This document shows, piece after piece, positions 48,273 to 57,728 of a stretch of 64,000 nucleotides of DNA. The notes under the pieces were generated by a model, which was given only the letters and a program-made list of their open reading frames with translations, searched no databases and had not been told where the DNA came from. The stretch lies in NCBI GenBank assembly GCA_958295525.1, contig OY282355.1, forward strand, positions 1,979,931 to 2,043,930. The letters run 5' to 3'. A program made the translations under genes and the position numbers. Source of the DNA: an uncultured Dehalococcoidia bacterium (GTDB taxonomy: Bacteria > Chloroflexota > Dehalococcoidia > Lucifugimonadales > Australimonadaceae). The stretch's first letter is position 1. Every line of letters starts with the position of its first letter.

Positions 48273-48356
48273 GGGGAAGTGGCGGAACGGCAGACGCGCA
48301 TGATTTAGGATCATGTGCCGCAAGGCGTGGGAGTTCAAATCTCCCCTTCCCCACCA
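48273..48356 (+). tRNA. tRNA-Leu (UAG anticodon)
   Basis: Type II tRNA with a long variable arm: 7-bp acceptor stem GGGGAAG/CTTCCCC, anticodon loop TTTAGGA (anticodon TAG, reads CUA), T arm GGGAGTTCAAATCTCCC, encoded CCA at the end. Reads leucine CUN. No neighbouring tRNAs and no integrase were seen. Confidence 0.97.
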
Positions 48357-48435: not shown

Positions 48436-49764
48436 ATGACCGTTTGGCGCGACGCCGCGCTCACCGGCTGGGGCCGGGCGCTCCGCGCCTCCACCCGCGC
48501 GGCGCGGCCCGAGCGGGCGAACCAACTGATCGAGGCTCTGGACGCCGCGGGGCCTAGCCTTTGCCTCTACGGCGCGGGCCGCTCCTACGGCGACGCGGCG
48601 CTCAACTCAGGCGGGGCGACCGTCATCACCTCACGGCTCGACCGCGTGCTGGCGTTTGACGAGGAAACCGGCGAGATCGAGGTCGAGCCGGGCGCGGCCA
48701 TCGGCGGCCTGCTCAGGGATTTCGGCCCGCGCGGCTGGGCTCCGCCCGTCGCGCCGGGCACGGGATTCGTCACCGTCGCCGGAGCGATCGCCAACGACGT
48801 CCACGGCAAGAACCACCACGCCGACGGCTCTTTCGGGCAGCACGTAACGCAAATTACGCTGCGGACGGGGGGGGGGGAGACGCTCACGCTCCAACCTGAA
48901 GACGAGGCGTTCCGCGCCACGGTCGGCGGCGTCGGCCTGACCGGAGCGATTCTTTCGGCCCGCCTGCGGATGCGCCCGATTGCGGGCGATAAAGCATTCG
49001 TGCGCGAACGACGAATGCCCTCCCTCGACGCGTTCATTGAGGCGTTCACGGAATCCGACCGGCGCTACAGCGTCGGCTGGGTGGACGCCGCCGCAACGGG
49101 CGCGACGCTTGGCCGGGGCATACTCGAGGAAGGCGAATCCACCGGCGAGCCCAGCCGCGAGCGCGCCCGCCGCGCCCGGGCTATTCCTTTCGACGCGCCG
49201 CCGTTCCTGTTGTCCGCGTCGGTCGTGCGGGCGTTCAACGCCGCTTACTACGCCCGCATTCCTAAGGATGGGCGGACGCGGGTTCGGCCACTCTCCGCGT
49301 TCTTGTTTCCGCTGGACGCCCTCGCCGATTGGAACCGCCTCTACGGGAAGCGCGGATTTCATCAGTTCCAATGCGTGGTTCCGCCGGATGCGACGGAATC
49401 GCTGCGCGCGATCCTCGCTGAGGCCGCCGGCAGCGGCCTGGCGTCTCCGCTCGCGGTGCTCAAGCGGCTCGGCCCCGGCAGCGCGGGGATGCTTTCGTTC
49501 CCGATGGAGGGTTGGACGCTGACGGTTGATTTCCCCGCGGCGCAAGCGTCCGCCGATCTGATCGGGCGTCTTGGCGCAACGGCGCTCGACGCGGGGGGCC
49601 GCGTCTATCTGGCGAAAGACGCGCTGCTCCCGCCGAGCGCGGTTCCGCGTATGCATCCGGAGTTGGACGCCTTCCGCGCGGTCTGCGACCGCCTCGACCC
49701 TGAAGGGCGGATGACCTCCGATATGGCGCGGCGATTACGGATTAGGAGGGCGGCGGATGGCTGA
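48436..49764 (+). CDS. dprE1: DprE1-like FAD-dependent polyprenylphosphoryl-ribose oxidase
   Basis: A 442-residue FAD-linked oxidase. GRSYGDAALNSGG and APGTGFVTVAGAIANDVHGKNHH are the FAD-binding motifs of the decaprenylphospho-ribose 2-epimerase oxidase subunit family. In mycobacteria DprE1 oxidises the C2 of decaprenyl-phosphoribose, then DprE2 reduces it to the arabinose epimer. The dprE2-like gene overlaps by 8 bp. The frame contains an 11-G homopolymer near codon 145. Confidence 0.85.
   Translation: MTVWRDAALTGWGRALRASTRAARPERANQLIEALDAAGPSLCLYGAGRSYGDAALNSGGATVITSRLDRVLAFDEETGEIEVEPGAAIGGLLRDFGPRGWAPPVAPGTGFVTVAGAIANDVHGKNHHADGSFGQHVTQITLRTGGGETLTLQPEDEAFRATVGGVGLTGAILSARLRMRPIAGDKAFVRERRMPSLDAFIEAFTESDRRYSVGWVDAAATGATLGRGILEEGESTGEPSRERARRARAIPFDAPPFLLSASVVRAFNAAYYARIPKDGRTRVRPLSAFLFPLDALADWNRLYGKRGFHQFQCVVPPDATESLRAILAEAAGSGLASPLAVLKRLGPGSAGMLSFPMEGWTLTVDFPAAQASADLIGRLGATALDAGGRVYLAKDALLPPSAVPRMHPELDAFRAVCDRLDPEGRMTSDMARRLRIRRAADG
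48867..48877 (+). repeat. 11-G homopolymer inside dprE1-like gene
   Basis: Eleven consecutive G, encoding part of RTGGGETL. Slippage by one base would shift the frame and truncate the protein, so it is a potential on/off switch. Sequencing error is also possible, though the frame stays open through it. Confidence 0.7.
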
Positions 49765-50500
49765 GCGCGAGACGTGGATCATCCTCGGCGCGACTTCCTC
49801 CATTGCGAGGGCGTTCGCCCGGCTCGCCGCCGCCGACGGCGCCGACTTGCTGCTAGCGGGCCGCGACGAGGCCGACCTGGAGCGCGCCTGCGGCGACCTC
49901 CGCGCGCGCTACGGCGCAAAGGCGGAGGTCTTCCTGTTCGACGCGCGCGAGCCCGGGGATTCCCGCGCTTTGGCGGAAGCCGCCGCCGCGCGCCCCGGAA
50001 CGCTGAACGTCGCCGTGTTCTTAGGCTCGATGCCTGAGCAGACGGCTATTGACGTCGACCCGGACTTGGCGGCGGGCGTCATCGCGGACAACTTCAGCGG
50101 GGTCGTCTCCGCCTTGCACCGCCTGGCGCCGCTGCTGGAGGAGCGCGGCGACGGCGTGGTCGTCGGAGTGGGCTCGGTCGCAGGGGACCGCGGACGGCTA
50201 AAGCATTACGTCTACGGAGCGTCCAAGGCGGGATTCCACGCCTACTTGTCAGGGCTGCGGAACCGGCTGGCGCGGAAGGGCGCGCACGCGCTGACCGTGA
50301 AGCCCGGTTTCGTGGACACGGCGATGACGTGGGGCGAGAAGGCGAAGCCGCTGATGATTTCGCCGGAGGCCGCCGCCGCCGACATTATGCGCGCCGCCAA
50401 GCGCAGGCAAGACGTGCTCTACACGCCGTGGTTCTGGCGCTGGATTATGGGCGTGGTTCAACTCATTCCCGAGCGCGTCTTCAAGAGGCTCTCGTTCTAG
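49757..50500 (+). CDS. dprE2: DprE2-like short-chain reductase
   Basis: A 247-residue SDR. ATSSIARAFARLAA takes the place of the usual TGxxxGIG loop, a feature of DprE2-type enzymes. Catalytic YGASKAG and VKPGFVDTAMTWG. Two C-terminal hydrophobic residue clusters (FWRWIMGVVQLIP). It reduces the 2-keto intermediate produced by DprE1. Overlaps dprE1 by 8 bp, and its stop shares CTAG with the stop of the UbiA fusion gene. Confidence 0.83.
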   Translation: MAERETWIILGATSSIARAFARLAAADGADLLLAGRDEADLERACGDLRARYGAKAEVFLFDAREPGDSRALAEAAAARPGTLNVAVFLGSMPEQTAIDVDPDLAAGVIADNFSGVVSALHRLAPLLEERGDGVVVGVGSVAGDRGRLKHYVYGASKAGFHAYLSGLRNRLARKGAHALTVKPGFVDTAMTWGEKAKPLMISPEAAAADIMRAAKRRQDVLYTPWFWRWIMGVVQLIPERVFKRLSF

Positions 50501-51999
50501 AGCGCCGCCGCGCCCACGACGATGAAAACCGCAACGGCGGCCGCGTAAGTGGACGGGTCTCTGAGCGCGTAGACCACGGGGTCGTCGTGCACGCGGCCCT
50601 GCGCTCCCCTGCGAAAGATGCGCGCCAGCCAAACGGCTGCGGGCAGCGCCGTCAGCGCGAGCAGTTCCGGCCTTGCGTAGAGCGTGAGGGCGTTGGGGGA
50701 AACAAACCCGTAGGCGACGAGAACGGCGATTGCGCCAGCCGACGCAAGCAGGCCGGCCGCCGTCACCCAGCGAAGGTCGCTCGGCTTGTACCCGCGCCCC
50801 GCCACCCGCCGCGCCCCGTTCGCGTGACGGGTCAATTCGGTCTGACGCTTCACCGCAGCGAGCGCGAAGAACAGCGTGAAGCACAGCGCGACGAACGCCA
50901 CGGTGATCGGGACGGAACTCGCCACTCCTCCGCTCACGGCGCGCAGAACATAGAAGCCGCTCAGCGCGATCATATCCAGCAAGATAACCCGCTTGAGATA
51001 GCCGGAGTAGGCCAGCGACGCGGCGACGTAGCCGAGCAGAGCCAGCCCGAACACGGGATTCGCCGCCGCCGACAGCAGGGCCGACAGGATGAACAGCCCT
51101 CCGGCAAGCAGCATCGCGCTGCGTATGGACAGCCGCCCCGCCGCTATGGGGCGCCGCCGCTTGGACGGATGACGGCGGTCTGCGTCAAGGTCAAGCATAT
51201 CGTTGATCAGGTAGAGGCCGGAAGCGCAGGCGCAAAACGCCGCGAATCCAAGCGCGGAGAGCGCCCAAGCGTTGGCGGATGCGCTGTGCGCGGCGACCAC
51301 GGGGAGAAACACCAGCAGGTTCTTCACCCACTGATGCGGGCGCAGCGCGCGCAGCCAAGCGTAGCCAGACGAGCCTCCCGCCGTCAGGATTCGCGCTTCC
51401 CCGTAGCGCGCCTTCACCGCAGTCAGCATTCGAGGCGACGGGGCAACGACGGTTACTCCCGCCGCGCGGTCCCAGACGGCGAAGTCGGCTTGCGAGTCTC
51501 CTACGTAGTCGAATCCGCCGGGCCCGTATGCGGCGCAGAGCGCTTCGGCTTTCGCCTCGCCCCGCAGATTCGTTTCGCCGTCGGACGCGAACGTCCGGGT
51601 CACGCCGAACCGTTCGGCGACGGCCTCCACGACGCTCCGGTCGGACGCGGACGCGAACGCGACCTCGCGTCCCTCGGCCTGCGCCTCCCGCACCATCGCC
51701 GCGACGCCGTCGTTCAGGGGCAGCGTCTCGACGTCAATGGCGGAATCGGCGGAGACGCGCCGCTTGACGCCCGCTTTTCCCCCGCGTCCGAACAGGCCGG
51801 CTATCGCGCTCAGCGGATTGGCGGCCGCCCGCCGCCAGAACGCTTCGTAGAGCAGATCCGTTCGCAGCAGGCTGTGGTCGAGGTCGACCACGAGGGGGCG
51901 CGGCGCGTCCGTTTGACGGGAGACCGGAGACGCGGACGTCCGCGCAGCCGGAACGGCGCGCGTTTCACGAGGAGTGCCGTGGATTTCTTCGCTCATCAT
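50497..51999 (-). CDS. HAD phosphatase-UbiA phosphoribosyl polyprenyl transferase fusion
   Basis: A 500-residue two-domain protein from ATG 51999 (TATGAT at 52031-52036 as -10). Residues of about 30-215: HAD hydrolase with DLDHSLLRTD, FASASD and GDSQADFAVWD. Residues of about 230-500: eight or nine membrane helices of the UbiA superfamily, opening LRPHQWVKNLLVFLP with NDMLDLDADRRHPSKRRRP and DMIALSGFYVLR, as in decaprenyl-phosphate phosphoribosyltransferase. The fusion could both load phosphoribose on the lipid and remove its 5-phosphate. Convergent with the dprE1-dprE2 pair. Confidence 0.85.
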   Translation of the reverse strand: MMSEEIHGTPRETRAVPAARTSASPVSRQTDAPRPLVVDLDHSLLRTDLLYEAFWRRAAANPLSAIAGLFGRGGKAGVKRRVSADSAIDVETLPLNDGVAAMVREAQAEGREVAFASASDRSVVEAVAERFGVTRTFASDGETNLRGEAKAEALCAAYGPGGFDYVGDSQADFAVWDRAAGVTVVAPSPRMLTAVKARYGEARILTAGGSSGYAWLRALRPHQWVKNLLVFLPVVAAHSASANAWALSALGFAAFCACASGLYLINDMLDLDADRRHPSKRRRPIAAGRLSIRSAMLLAGGLFILSALLSAAANPVFGLALLGYVAASLAYSGYLKRVILLDMIALSGFYVLRAVSGGVASSVPITVAFVALCFTLFFALAAVKRQTELTRHANGARRVAGRGYKPSDLRWVTAAGLLASAGAIAVLVAYGFVSPNALTLYARPELLALTALPAAVWLARIFRRGAQGRVHDDPVVYALRDPSTYAAAVAVFIVVGAAAL

Positions 52000-52129
52000 A
52001 GCGTGGGGCGCCGCGCAGGGAAGCAGTTTTATCATAACATTAGGCGCGCGGCCTCTCGCTTCGCGGCGCGTTCCGCGTGGCGCCGAGTTGCGACTCCGCG
52101 ATGCATAATCATAGACGTAGGCGGCCGGG

Positions 52130-52756
52130 TTGGCGCAAGACGGCGGCATAACCGATGACGAGGTTCCCGTTCGGGACGGATACAAGCCGTTCTTCGACGT
52201 CGGCGTCATCATCGCCGCCCACGCGCTCCTCTTCCCGCTATGGGCGTTGCTCTGGATAGTGATACCGCTTGCGATCTGGGCGCGCGACCGCGGGCCGGTG
52301 TTCTACACGCAGGAGCGTTTGGGGCGCGGGGGCAAGATCTTCACGATCATCAAGTTCCGCACGATGACGTCGCATACGGCCCAGTCCGCTTCCGACGAGG
52401 GCGACCCCCGCGTGACGCTGGTCGGCAAAGCGCTCCGCCCCCTGCGTCTCGACGAGATGCCGCAGATCATCAACATTCTGCGCGGGGAGATGAGTTTGGT
52501 GGGGCCGCGTCCCGAGCGTCCCGAACGCGCCGGAGAAATCGCCCGAGAGTGCCCCGATTTCTTCCGCCGACTCAGAGTCAAGCCCGGCATCGCGGGCTTG
52601 GCGCAAGCGCGCGGCGGCTATTCGTTGGAGCCTTGCAGAAAAACCCGGTACGACAACCTGTACATCGAGCGAATGAGCCCGTGGATGGACTTGCGCCTGC
52701 TCCTCCTCTCCGTGGGAGTCGTGCTGGGCCGCCTCTTCCGCGGGAGGGTTCACTAA
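52130..52756 (+). CDS. Undecaprenyl-phosphate sugar-1-phosphate transferase
   Basis: A 208-residue bacterial sugar transferase (PF02397-like). Start probably TTG 52130. One hydrophobic segment (VGVIIAAHALLFPLWALLWI), then KFRTM, LRLDEMPQIINILRGEMSLVGPRP and RVKPGIAGLAQARG. It starts repeat-unit assembly on the lipid carrier. Divergent from the HAD-UbiA gene; overlaps the next, convergent gene by 4 bp. Confidence 0.9.
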   Translation: MAQDGGITDDEVPVRDGYKPFFDVGVIIAAHALLFPLWALLWIVIPLAIWARDRGPVFYTQERLGRGGKIFTIIKFRTMTSHTAQSASDEGDPRVTLVGKALRPLRLDEMPQIINILRGEMSLVGPRPERPERAGEIARECPDFFRRLRVKPGIAGLAQARGGYSLEPCRKTRYDNLYIERMSPWMDLRLLLLSVGVVLGRLFRGRVH

Positions 52757-54009
52757 TCTCCTGCGCCGCCTTCTTCCGCCATCTGCGCGAAGAGCGCCTC
52801 GTAGTCCGCGGCCATCCGGGCCTCGCCGAAATCCTCCGCGCGCCTGCCGGCCTCGTCCGTCGAGGGAGCGTCTCCGTCGAGCGCGGAGAGGATGGCCCGC
52901 GCAAGCGCCGGAGGGTCGCGCATAGGCGTGAGCGTCCCCCACTTGCCTCCGCCGAGCGCCTCATGCGGCCCTGATGGGCAATCCGCGCTGACGACCGGCG
53001 CGCCGCAGGCCATCGCTTCGATGAGCGCGTTGGGAAACGCCTCGCGCCACGACGAGAGCGCGAACACCGCCGCTCTCCGCATAGCGCGATAGGGGTTTTC
53101 GTCAAAATCCAGAAACGCTACGTCCCGCTCCGCCCCGTGGCGCTCGGCGATGGAGAGAAGGCGGCGTTTGTAGTCCGGCGAACTGTCGCCCATTATGACC
53201 AGCCGCGCTTCGCGCTCCCGCCGGACGAGGCCGAACGCCTCCATCAGCGTCCCGTGGTCTTTCCTCGGCTCGTCGCTTCCGACGGTCAAAATGACGGGCG
53301 GGCCGCCGTCCGTGAACCATTCGCAAGGCGGCTCCTCCTCGCTCATACGGCGGATTTCCTCGATGGGCAAGCCGTTGTAGATGGCGTGAAACCTCGCCGG
53401 GTCCACCCCCAAGCGCTCGGATGCGTCGTCGGCGACGGCCTGCGATACGGCGGCGAACGCGGTCGCCTGCGGATAGAGCGCCCGCGCACGGGTTAGTTGC
53501 TCTTCGGCGTAGGTGAGGCCGACGAGGTAGTGCAGGCCGATCACAAGCGGCGTTCGGGCGTTCGCCAGTTCCATTCCCAACAACGCGGCGACGTTGGCCA
53601 TCGGCAACGCGGACAAGAGCGCGTCGGGCCGCGCTTCGCGCAGATACGCCGCGACGCCGAGCGCGTAATACGCGCTGCCCGGCCTAATGCGAATCCCCGG
53701 ATGCCGCCGCCTCAGCGCGAACCAAGCCCGGGCGGCGGCGGCGGGATTGACGTCCAACGCCGCGACTGCGATGCCCCGCTCACGGAAGTGGCGCAGCAGG
53801 CTGCGGTCGGCTTTCCAACGGCCCGGGTAATAGAGGCGCAACCCTTGAGGAACGCCGCTGCGGTAGACGCCTTTGCATTGCGCGAGGAACAGATCCACGC
53901 GATGGCCCCGCTCGAGCAGCGCGTTCGCAAGCGTCAGCGTGACGCGCTCCGCTCCCCCGCCCCTGAGGGAGGACAACGCCAAGCCGACGCGCAATTTCTT
54001 CGCGCTCAT
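52753..54009 (-). CDS. GT4-family glycosyltransferase, second
   Basis: A 418-residue retaining glycosyltransferase. N-terminal LSSLRGGGAERVTLTLANAL, then YNGLPIEEI, TVGSDEPRKDHGTL and EAFPNALIEAMACGAPVVSA (the nucleotide-sugar E-x7-E). Adds sugars to lipid-linked oligosaccharide on the cytoplasmic face. ATGA overlap with the GT4 upstream. Confidence 0.9.
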   Translation of the reverse strand: MSAKKLRVGLALSSLRGGGAERVTLTLANALLERGHRVDLFLAQCKGVYRSGVPQGLRLYYPGRWKADRSLLRHFRERGIAVAALDVNPAAAARAWFALRRRHPGIRIRPGSAYYALGVAAYLREARPDALLSALPMANVAALLGMELANARTPLVIGLHYLVGLTYAEEQLTRARALYPQATAFAAVSQAVADDASERLGVDPARFHAIYNGLPIEEIRRMSEEEPPCEWFTDGGPPVILTVGSDEPRKDHGTLMEAFGLVRREREARLVIMGDSSPDYKRRLLSIAERHGAERDVAFLDFDENPYRAMRRAAVFALSSWREAFPNALIEAMACGAPVVSADCPSGPHEALGGGKWGTLTPMRDPPALARAILSALDGDAPSTDEAGRRAEDFGEARMAADYEALFAQMAEEGGAGD

Positions 54010-55241
54010 CGCGCTCCCGGCCCGGGCTCCGCCAATTCATCCGGCTCGCGCCGCTCACGCCCGTCGGGCGCCTTGCCCTTTCGTCTGCGGAGCGTTCGCT
54101 CGATGAGTTCCTGATAGCGCGCGTTGAATCTGTCCGCCGAGAGCGCCGCTTCCGCCCGGGCGCGGCTTTCGGCGCGCATCGCATCCCGTGTTTCGGCGGG
54201 CAAGGCGGCGAAACGCCTTATCGCGTCCGCGATGTCCGCAGGAGCGTTCGGGTCGAACAGGAACCCGTTTCGGCCATCCTCCACCAGACGGGGATTGTCG
54301 CCCACGCTGCTCGCGAGCACGGGAAGCCCGCAGGCCATCGCCTCGCAAACCACGTTCGGCGTTCCCTCGTAGACGGACGGCAGAACGAGGGCGTCGGCGG
54401 CGTGGTACAGCGAAAGGACGTCCGGCGAGGCGGGGCGCAGACGGAACCTGTCCCGCAGCCCCAGCCGCTCGACCGCTTCGTCGAATCGCTCGGCGTACTC
54501 CGTATGGCCTCGCTGTTGGGACCGCGCCCACTTGGATGCGCGGCGGTCGCCCGCCGTTACGCGGTCGCCGTGCCAGTCAACGGTCACGTCGAGCGCGGGC
54601 TCTTCCTTGCGGAGGATGTTGACGGCCTCCAGCAACCCGAAGGGGTTTTTCTGCGGCTGCAGCCTGGCGAGCGCGAGCAGGCGGAGTCGGCCGTTCCGCG
54701 CCGGAGGAGGAGACGGCAGCGGAGCGAACGCGCTCAAGTCCACGCCGTTCACAATGACGCTCGTCCGATCCGCGAGGAATGGGGCGATCTTGCTCATTCG
54801 TTCGCGCTGCGCGTGCGAGTTGGCGACGACGGCGTCCGCAAGGCGGTGGAGCGCGTAGCGCGCGCTGCGCCTCAGGCTTTTCCGTTGCGTGTCGAGGTTC
54901 AGTTCCAGCGCGATGACGGCGAACGTTCGCCGGGGCAGTCCCGCGAGTTCGGCGAGGACGTTCGCGCCCCGCAGAAACGACAGCACGACGTCGGGGCGGC
55001 TTCGCCGGATCGCGCGCCGCATCGCGTAGATCAGATGGAGCCGATTGCGCGAGCGCACGCGCTCGACGGGAACGCCGGCCTCCGCGAGTTCGCTTGCGAA
55101 AAAGTCGCCGGGCCAGTAAGTGAGAACGGTCACCTCGTAGTTCGCGGCGGCGAGGCCGGAGGCGAGGCGCGCCAAGTCCCGCTGCGCTCCGCCGGAGTTC
55201 AGTTGGTCTATGACCAGCGTAGCGCGGCGGGGCTTACGCAT
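54006..55241 (-). CDS. GT4-family glycosyltransferase, first
   Basis: A 411-residue glycosyltransferase: DQLNSGGAQRDLARLASGL, VNGVDLSAF, LARLQPQKNPFGLLEA, YEGTPNVVCEAMACGLPVLA. It overlaps the flippase gene by 8 bp and the next GT4 by 4 bp. Together they add successive sugars to the polymer unit. Confidence 0.9.
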   Translation of the reverse strand: MRKPRRATLVIDQLNSGGAQRDLARLASGLAAANYEVTVLTYWPGDFFASELAEAGVPVERVRSRNRLHLIYAMRRAIRRSRPDVVLSFLRGANVLAELAGLPRRTFAVIALELNLDTQRKSLRRSARYALHRLADAVVANSHAQRERMSKIAPFLADRTSVIVNGVDLSAFAPLPSPPPARNGRLRLLALARLQPQKNPFGLLEAVNILRKEEPALDVTVDWHGDRVTAGDRRASKWARSQQRGHTEYAERFDEAVERLGLRDRFRLRPASPDVLSLYHAADALVLPSVYEGTPNVVCEAMACGLPVLASSVGDNPRLVEDGRNGFLFDPNAPADIADAIRRFAALPAETRDAMRAESRARAEAALSADRFNARYQELIERTLRRRKGKAPDGRERREPDELAEPGPGAR

Positions 55242-56592
55242 GGGCTGCGCGCCTTCTCAGCGTTTGGCGGATGGCCGCTCTTCCCTCCGTCCAGACGTAG
55301 ACGAAGTCGCTGCGTTTGGGCAGCCAGGTCGCGGCGACGCTCGCTCCGCTCGCTCGATGAAAGAAGACGCTCATCAGCAGCGTGCGCGCAATGAAGCCGG
55401 CGCTCAGCGCCCAGGCCGCGCCCTGCAACCCCGCGACCGGATACACCGTGAACAGAACGACGGCGTTCACGCCTATTCCTGTCCAGATGATCCCCGAAAG
55501 CGCTCCGGGGCGGTTGGACCCCATCAGATACGTTGCGAGTATCGCGCTGCAGGCGTGGGCGATTCCCCCCGGCGCGAGCCAGACGAGCAAATCCGCCACG
55601 GGGAGAAACCGTTGGGTGAAGAAGAAGGGAACGAGCGGCGAGGCGGCGGCGAGAATGAGGAAAACCGCCATCGCCCCCGTCGTGGCCACGAAGACGAGGC
55701 GTATGCAAAGCGCGACCAACTCAGGCCGGCTCCGCGCGTCCTCCGTGACGCGCGGGAAGAGCACGCTGCCGACCATGCTGGCGATCACGCCGAATTGCAG
55801 CATCAGCGCGAGCGCCAAGTCGAATAGCCCGACCTCGCCCGTTGACGCAATTACGCCGAGCATCAGGACGCCGATCCGCGCCTCCGCCGCCATCGCTATC
55901 CGGGCGTAGTGGAACCGCCATCCGTAGTTGAGCGCGAGCGAGAACCCGGCGCGCGACGGCGCGCTTCCCGTCAACCCATAGCCTCTCCGCAAACGCAGAA
56001 CGCACGCGGCGGCCATAAACGCCTGCCCGACCGCAAAGGCCGCGATGGCTCCGTTGACTCCCATATCCATCGCCGCAACGAGGATGAGCAGCGCGAGCAA
56101 GTTCACGACGGCGCGCAGCATCCAAAATCCGGCGAGGGAGCCGAATCCCCTCAGACCCACCAACAGTTGCTCGACGGCGGTCGCCGCCGTAGTGATCGGC
56201 ATAAGAGCGAGCGCAAGGTAAAAGGATGCGGGGTCGGCGGCGGCGAAAAATCCGACGCCGCTGTTGATCAGCGGAATCGCCGCGGCCGCGGCGACGGCGG
56301 TTCCCGCCGCGATGATCGCCAGCGCGACGGCGACTCCGCGCGACACGCTCATCCGGCGGGTGACGACGTTGTAGGTGACGCCTTTGTCTATGCCCGGCGT
56401 GACGATGACCCCGGCGAGCACGGCGAACGTCACGCAGATGGCGTAGGAGCCGCGCCCCTCAGGCAGCAGGAAGTAGGCGAGGAGGCTCTGTATCAGCAAC
56501 CCGAACGACAGGACGCTCGCCCGGGCGGAGAACAGCATCGCCACTTCCTGCGCGCCGGAGGTTCGCCGGCTCGTTCCCGAAGCCGCGCTCAC
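55234..56592 (-). CDS. Lipid-linked oligosaccharide flippase (MATE/Wzx-like)
   Basis: A 452-residue membrane protein with about 12-14 hydrophobic segments. Start at GTG 56592, overlapping the sulfotransferase stop as GTGA. Early LLPEGRGSYAICVTFAVLAG and a mid-protein loop fit the MOP superfamily. It should flip lipid-linked glycan units across the membrane. The first 20 residues are polar, and the frame upstream overlaps the sulfotransferase. Confidence 0.83.
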   Translation of the reverse strand: MSAASGTSRRTSGAQEVAMLFSARASVLSFGLLIQSLLAYFLLPEGRGSYAICVTFAVLAGVIVTPGIDKGVTYNVVTRRMSVSRGVAVALAIIAAGTAVAAAAAIPLINSGVGFFAAADPASFYLALALMPITTAATAVEQLLVGLRGFGSLAGFWMLRAVVNLLALLILVAAMDMGVNGAIAAFAVGQAFMAAACVLRLRRGYGLTGSAPSRAGFSLALNYGWRFHYARIAMAAEARIGVLMLGVIASTGEVGLFDLALALMLQFGVIASMVGSVLFPRVTEDARSRPELVALCIRLVFVATTGAMAVFLILAAASPLVPFFFTQRFLPVADLLVWLAPGGIAHACSAILATYLMGSNRPGALSGIIWTGIGVNAVVLFTVYPVAGLQGAAWALSAGFIARTLLMSVFFHRASGASVAATWLPKRSDFVYVWTEGRAAIRQTLRRRAAHA

Positions 56593-57482
56593 CGCAGCCC
56601 CGCCGCCGGAAGCGCCGGTTCGATTCGCCCGCCATGTTCGGGGCGTCCTTTGCGGAAGAAGACTCCGTCCGCAACCGGCTCCGACGCGTTTTCCGCCAGC
56701 GCGCAACACGCTGCGAAACTCTCGTCCAAGAGGCGCGCGTTCTCCTCGCTCAACTGCGGAACGCCGCGCTCCTCCGCCGAAGACGTAAAGAACAGCCGCC
56801 GAACCGACGGCGCGTCTTTCACCCGCTGCAGGAAACGGCGAAACCCCAACCGGCGCAGCCCGACCGCAACCGACTTTCCGGCGGCGGCGAGCAGCGCGTT
56901 CCGGGCGCGGACGGATTCGTTCACAACCGCGGGCTCGGATTCGTCGAACGGCTCCGCCCCGCAGAGCGCCGCTATCTCGTTCAGCGCCGCCGTCGTGTCG
57001 CCGGTGAGCGCGGAAAAATGCAGCGTCAGCGCGTCAACGCCGGCGCCGTACAGCGCGTCGAGCGACTCCGGCGTCAGCCGGTCGCGCGCGACGGCGCGCT
57101 CCAACCGCCTCGCGCCGAAAAGCGCCGAGAACTCCCCGCGGCTCTTCCTAAACCGCATCATCGAAACGGCGCGGTCGCGGTGCGCCCTCAGCAGGATCAC
57201 GAGCAGAGTTCTGATCCCTCCGTCCGCCAGCCGCCGAACGCCCGGCCCCAGAGCCGGGTCTTGGTAGCCCAAGTTGGCCACGTCCGCCAGTATCCTCTTC
57301 CCCTCGCGGTTCGCCTGCGACAAGGCTTTCTCGAATCTCGCCGGAGAGCGGTAGTAGTACCCTTCCTTGATCTCGGGGAAAGCGAAATCCTCATGCCGCC
57401 GCAGGCGCTCATAGAGCAATTCGCTGCCCGAACGCCCCGGCCCGGCGACGAGCAGGTAATCGTATTTCAAGGGGCTGTCCAC
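56589..57482 (-). CDS. Sulfotransferase
   Basis: A 297-residue enzyme (start probably GTG 57482; TACAAT at 57538-57543 is a -10 upstream). PAPS-binding 5'-loop GPGRSGSELLYERL and 3'-phosphate region RAHRDRAVSMMRFRKSRGEF. It transfers sulfate from PAPS to a sugar, protein or lipid. It leads the glycan operon, suggesting a sulfated surface polymer. Confidence 0.85.
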   Translation of the reverse strand: MDSPLKYDYLLVAGPGRSGSELLYERLRRHEDFAFPEIKEGYYYRSPARFEKALSQANREGKRILADVANLGYQDPALGPGVRRLADGGIRTLLVILLRAHRDRAVSMMRFRKSRGEFSALFGARRLERAVARDRLTPESLDALYGAGVDALTLHFSALTGDTTAALNEIAALCGAEPFDESEPAVVNESVRARNALLAAAGKSVAVGLRRLGFRRFLQRVKDAPSVRRLFFTSSAEERGVPQLSEENARLLDESFAACCALAENASEPVADGVFFRKGRPEHGGRIEPALPAAGLR

Positions 57483-57728
57483 GATAGGGCTGACGGGCCT
57501 GCATCCTCGTCGCGCAGGGTAGAAGGAAGCGTAGGAGATTGTACCCCATCGCGTTCTCTCACGCAGCAAAAGGGGGAAGCGGCGGCGTAGGCGCAAGGTT
57601 GGGGCGCAGGGCGAGCGTGTAGGGCGGGCTATGCCGCAGGGAAGAGACTTGGCCGCCCGCCGTCAGAGAAGCGGGCGCTGGGGTATGATGGCGTTCATCC
57701 TCGACCTGCGGAGAAACGGCGTCTCTCT

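Follow-up and report, generated by a model that had tools for sequence, protein, structure and literature searches.

A HAD-UbiA fusion gene convergent with DprE1- and DprE2-type genes in a probable Chloroflexota genome: a predicted route to polyprenyl-phospho-D-arabinofuranose, probably acquired by horizontal transfer

Lipid-carried D-arabinofuranose is a sugar donor whose best-known role is in the cell wall of the tuberculosis bacterium. The mycobacterial proteins Rv3806c, Rv3807c, DprE1 (Rv3790) and DprE2 (Rv3791) act in the same order of reactions that is predicted for the locus described here, and they include the closest solved relatives of all three of its proteins. However, the mycobacterial phosphatase is a separate and unrelated protein, while the phosphatase of this locus is fused to its transferase. 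The fused architecture is found in ORF15 of Citrobacter youngae O1 (PRP-PPPRS, of the three-component pentofuranose systems), which has the same N-terminal HAD domain, UbiA-type transferase and catalytic motifs (PMC11127046), a likeness judged from architecture and motifs. ORF15 made farnesyl-phospho-ribose from PRPP in vitro, and a mutant in its HAD nucleophile accumulated the 5-phosphate product (PMC11127046). The same work assigned DprE1 and DprE2 homologues to the arabinose versions of these systems, in which they mark Araf-containing glycans. Outside the Actinobacteria, the D-Araf cluster for type IV pilin of Pseudomonas paraeruginosa PA7 has a polyprenyl-linked D-Araf donor route (PMC12369383), as is predicted here; the P. 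aeruginosa phosphatase is reported to be separate (PMC11127046), in contrast to the fused one of this locus.

The window, meaning the whole 64,000-nucleotide stretch of DNA that was analysed, carries a DprE1-type FAD oxidase gene (48436-49764, forward strand), a DprE2-type SDR reductase gene (49757-50500, forward strand) that overlaps it by 8 bases, and a HAD-UbiA fusion gene of the PRP-PPPRS type (50497 to approximately 51999, reverse strand). Unlike the Citrobacter system, the window has its DprE1 and DprE2 genes convergent to the fusion, and the CTAG at 50497-50500 supplies the stops of both the DprE2-like gene and the fusion. These three reading frames, their overlap and the shared CTAG are as the sequence-only reading had described them; the span it considered, ending at 52756, also includes a further gene for a PglC/WbaP-type sugar-phosphate transferase. 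The longest frame of the fusion is 50497-52212 on the reverse strand, and because no conserved part of its relatives aligns with residues 1-71, the start is probably an internal methionine at 51996/51999 or 52035. A search for sigma-70 promoters found none. The trio is not a chance association, because about 50 of the best 80 named loci, out of at least 548 relatives of the fusion, carry all three genes too.

Within the fusion, a HAD phosphatase domain (51382-51894, reverse strand; PF12710, 30.1 bits against a cut-off of 27) and a UbiA-fold membrane phosphoribosyltransferase domain (50500-51366, reverse strand; PF01040, 77.7 bits against a cut-off of 34.2) lie in a single frame with no stop between them. 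An AlphaFold model built with a 35-row alignment (pLDDT 91.7) contains both folds, and the earlier claim that one gene joins the two domains is thus borne out. The protein matches the NCBIfam model NF006088 (PRK08238) over its full length (profile positions 6-479 of 482) with 462.5 bits, where the cut-off is 351, and the next-best profiles are those of decaprenyl-phosphate phosphoribosyltransferases. By sequence, the UbiA half is closest among solved structures to Rv3806c (8j8j, E 8e-26), which is also the top Foldseek match of the model against the PDB (E 1.8e-11, TMt 0.85); the runner-up UbiA structure is archaeal (E 3.6e-5, TMt 0.70). Phosphoserine-phosphatase-like folds are also among the Foldseek matches and may be read as the HAD half. 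By sequence, the HAD half alone gave chance matches only against the PDB, although the fold search did place it.

The active sites are consistent with this identity. The phosphoribose site of Rv3806c is unlike that of other UbiA enzymes (PMC10994848), and of the 12 PRPP-contact residues listed in that study, ten are identical in the fusion (R22, K28, Y70, N73, D77, K87, R90, Y138, K143 and Y157) and two are changed (Q135 to S and K208 to V). The two other UbiA proteins of the genome are without K28 and Y70. In the 35-row homologue alignment, invariant residues include N265, D266, D269, D273, R384 and E387 of the UbiA half, with its NDxxDxxxD and KRxxE motifs and PRPP site, and D38, D40, K149 and D171 of the HAD half, in which a DLDHS nucleophile loop is followed by an invariant lysine and aspartate. 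Assignment of the UbiA half as an Rv3806c-type phosphoribosyltransferase, predicted to transfer ribose-5-phosphate to polyprenyl phosphate, is therefore well supported. Together, the NF006088 match, the PRPP contacts and the HAD residues support the proposal that a single polypeptide may act as both polyprenyl-phosphate 5-phosphoribosyltransferase and phosphoribose phosphatase.

The sequence-only reading had expected such a fusion to be unusual. This expectation is rejected: NF006088 is a curated family, a scan of named genomes yielded at least 548 confirmed fusion relatives, and an enzyme of the same architecture was characterised in 2024 (PMC11127046). The best 80 of these relatives are mostly from Proteobacteria, and their flanks hold a DprE1 homologue in 53 cases and a DprE2 homologue in 50, counts that refer to the flank at hand, many of the contigs being short. 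In plasmid records the genes follow the operon order fusion-GtrA-DprE1-DprE2, at times with one extra gene inserted. A record of the actinobacterium Nocardioides marinus (L117) contains a Rhodobacterales-like fusion operon, which reflects either recent transfer or contamination.

The two forward-strand genes encode proteins that are named here DprE1-type and DprE2-type because both score below the NCBIfam equivalog cut-offs (396.6 bits against 500 for NF053785 and 155.9 against 250 for NF053786, respectively); the DprE2-like protein also falls below the cut-off of PRK07102 (259.6 bits against 267). Their closest solved relatives are nevertheless the mycobacterial enzymes. The top PDB matches of the DprE1-like protein are mycobacterial DprE1 (E 2e-75), and the HGKNHH and AKD motifs of the FAD and active sites are kept. 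The DprE2-like protein matches mycobacterial DprE2 best (21gq_C, E 2.1e-22), with an E-value some seven orders of magnitude below that of the next SDR (E 5.8e-15). Where mycobacterial DprE1 has Cys387, the residue targeted by benzothiazinones, the window protein has a threonine, which predicts insensitivity to the covalent members of that class and makes this DprE1 a natural comparison for the drug target.

The favoured reading, to which a probability of roughly 85% is given, is that the trio makes polyprenyl-phospho-D-arabinofuranose, which would then be flipped and used by a GT-C transferase, and that the genes reached this genome horizontally from a Rhodobacterales-type source. Under this scheme the UbiA half would first load phosphoribose onto the lipid and the HAD half would remove the 5-phosphate within the same polypeptide. 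The DprE1-type enzyme would oxidise C2 of polyprenyl-phospho-ribose to a 2-keto intermediate, and the DprE2-type enzyme would reduce C2 to give polyprenyl-phospho-arabinofuranose. Family membership and active-site residues point to these four chemical steps. The lipid-linked arabinose would finally be flipped and moved by a membrane GT-C transferase onto a surface glycan or protein, two steps proposed without a gene assigned to them. Counted against the scheme are the sub-threshold DprE1 and DprE2 scores, the lack of any GtrA match in the entire genome, and the lack of a PMT_2-type GT-C match in the window, with 24 such matches elsewhere in the genome. Thus, the earlier description of the pathway as self-contained holds for synthesis of the donor but is overstated for its export and transfer. 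The chemistry itself is already known, and the trio is real and probably functional.

Among the best 80 of at least 548 loci, 13 (L054, L060, L061, L069, L073, L074, L083, L091, L092, L099, L103, L107 and L110) have the convergent layout of the window, in which DprE2 and DprE1 face the fusion with no GtrA between, and each of the 13 records is either Rhodobacterales or an unplaced alphaproteobacterium. Within the same 80 loci, this convergent set holds the proteins closest to the window's DprE1 (47-55% identity) and DprE2 (53-61%), and the window is sister to the set in three gene trees, with SH-aLRT values of 99 (DprE1), 99 (DprE2) and 96 (fusion) from quick searches without bootstrap. The class's own DprE1 and DprE2 form a clade separate from the window and the convergent set. 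In all ten convergent loci with enough flank (those listed except L073, L091 and L103), a PF03706 gene lies upstream of DprE1 and the Tad-pilus genes cpaB, cpaC, cpaE and cpaF, names assigned from the sequences, adjoin the trio; the window has neither. No Tad genes were found at operon-layout loci among the best 80 of at least 548. Two layouts of the pathway can thus be told apart, and the link of the convergent one with Tad pili is testable, although this synteny could be explained by common ancestry of the ten taxa without a functional link. In two further loci (L049 and L097) the fusion still lies beside the Tad genes, and no DprE gene was found in their flanks.

Comparison with four congeners suggests how the trio came to its present position. 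The left flank is syntenic in all four up to a tRNA-Leu gene (anticodon TAG; 48273-48356, forward strand; ARAGORN), a likely island edge, and the right flank is syntenic from clpC-dnaJ (59013 onward). The intervening 48.4-59 kb has no counterpart beside either flank in these congeners, which suggests transfer. Among 301 genomes of the phylum, phylum and class being taken here as grouped in the genome collection, the present one alone passes the NF006088 cut-off, no other full-length fusion match was found in 393 genomes of the class, and no full DprE1 was found in the sampled congeners. The trio was therefore probably acquired from an alphaproteobacterium-like, Rhodobacterales-type source, beside the tRNA-Leu gene and with its convergent order kept, although the direction of transfer is inferred and not proved. 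No meaningful attachment-site repeats of the tRNA-Leu were detected in the window and three flanking 20-kb loci, and the base composition of the locus is uniform with its surroundings; the transfer, if real, is therefore old. A clean empty site was not found, the two flanks being unjoined in the congeners examined, and the exact island boundaries are putative only. With this apparent cross-phylum transfer, the known route to lipid-linked pentofuranoses reaches a host that is probably a member of the Chloroflexota; what is new here is the convergent layout common to the 13 Rhodobacterales-type loci, the Tad flank of those loci and the stretch that the congeners lack. Class genomes of family code f96 (L134-L143) contain native DprE1-DprE2 pairs, several of them beside an unfused DPPR-synthase-like UbiA gene.

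The same stretch contains genes that look like a short-glycan cluster. By Pfam, these are the PglC/WbaP-type polyprenyl-phosphate sugar-1-phosphate transferase (PF02397; 52130-52756, forward strand), which probably starts a separate glycan, and two GT4 glycosyltransferases (52753-54009 and 54006-55241, both on the reverse strand). They are followed on the reverse strand by a MOP/Wzx-type flippase, a candidate exporter only (55234-56709, start probably near 56538; PF01943, 36 bits against a cut-off of 28.2), and by a weak sulfotransferase-like protein (56589-57596; PF13469, 15.1 bits, below the cut-off of 27) with a P-loop GPGRSGS read from the sequence. It is possible, although somewhat doubtful, that the same donor serves this adjacent cluster, its arabinose being added to the short oligosaccharide of the PF02397 and GT4 enzymes and its lipid-linked form being flipped by the MOP protein, a role like that proposed for ORF14 of Citrobacter. 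Trio and cluster are adjacent within the stretch absent from congeners, and a flippase of the MATE family, in the same superfamily as MOP, was proposed in PMC11127046. However, the cluster lacks a PMT_2 GT-C, homologues of these neighbours are absent from the flanks of the convergent loci, and the MOP gene is equally likely to be a Wzx for the oligosaccharide. Less probable again is a reading in which the convergent loci without GtrA form an Araf system of their own, one that originally decorated Rhodobacterales Tad/Flp pili and, on crossing to a distant phylum, was coupled to a different surface glycan and flippase.

The remaining explanations carry lower odds. The locus might be ancestral in the lineage and lost by the congeners and most of the class, for which its uniform composition and the long branches of the window proteins in the DprE1 and DprE2 trees could be cited; all the sisters belong to one alphaproteobacterial group, and trees alone do not prove direction. 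This history is improbable given that the class has its own distinct set of DprE1, DprE2 and unfused transferase, descent from which is disfavoured by the three gene trees, and that every sampled congener lacks the locus. Still more improbable is an end product of polyprenyl-phospho-ribose only, with DprE1 and DprE2 uncoupled or acting on another substrate. Some fusion relatives do lack DprE genes in the flank at hand, and the equivalog scores are low, but the three genes are tightly linked, keep a common order and give concordant trees, all of which argues otherwise, as does the role of DprE1/E2 homologues as a mark of Araf-containing glycans (PMC11127046). Least credible by far is a reading in which the UbiA half is a prenyltransferase of the quinone, heme or another type and the phosphatase fused to it is an unrelated one. 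The common UbiA superfamily fold is all that speaks for it, whereas the UbiA half of the window protein is closest to phosphoribosyltransferases and conserves the PRPP 5-phosphate site; a quinone or heme prenyltransferase is rejected by the NF006088 match, the PRPP-site residues and the fold search. Nor is the oxidase nearer to unrelated sugar oxidases than to DprE1.

Three PF03706 matches occur in the genome, all outside the window. One of these genes lies about 2 kb from a PMT_2 GT-C gene (G000:C1:2215535-2218696) and marks a candidate flippase/transferase site.
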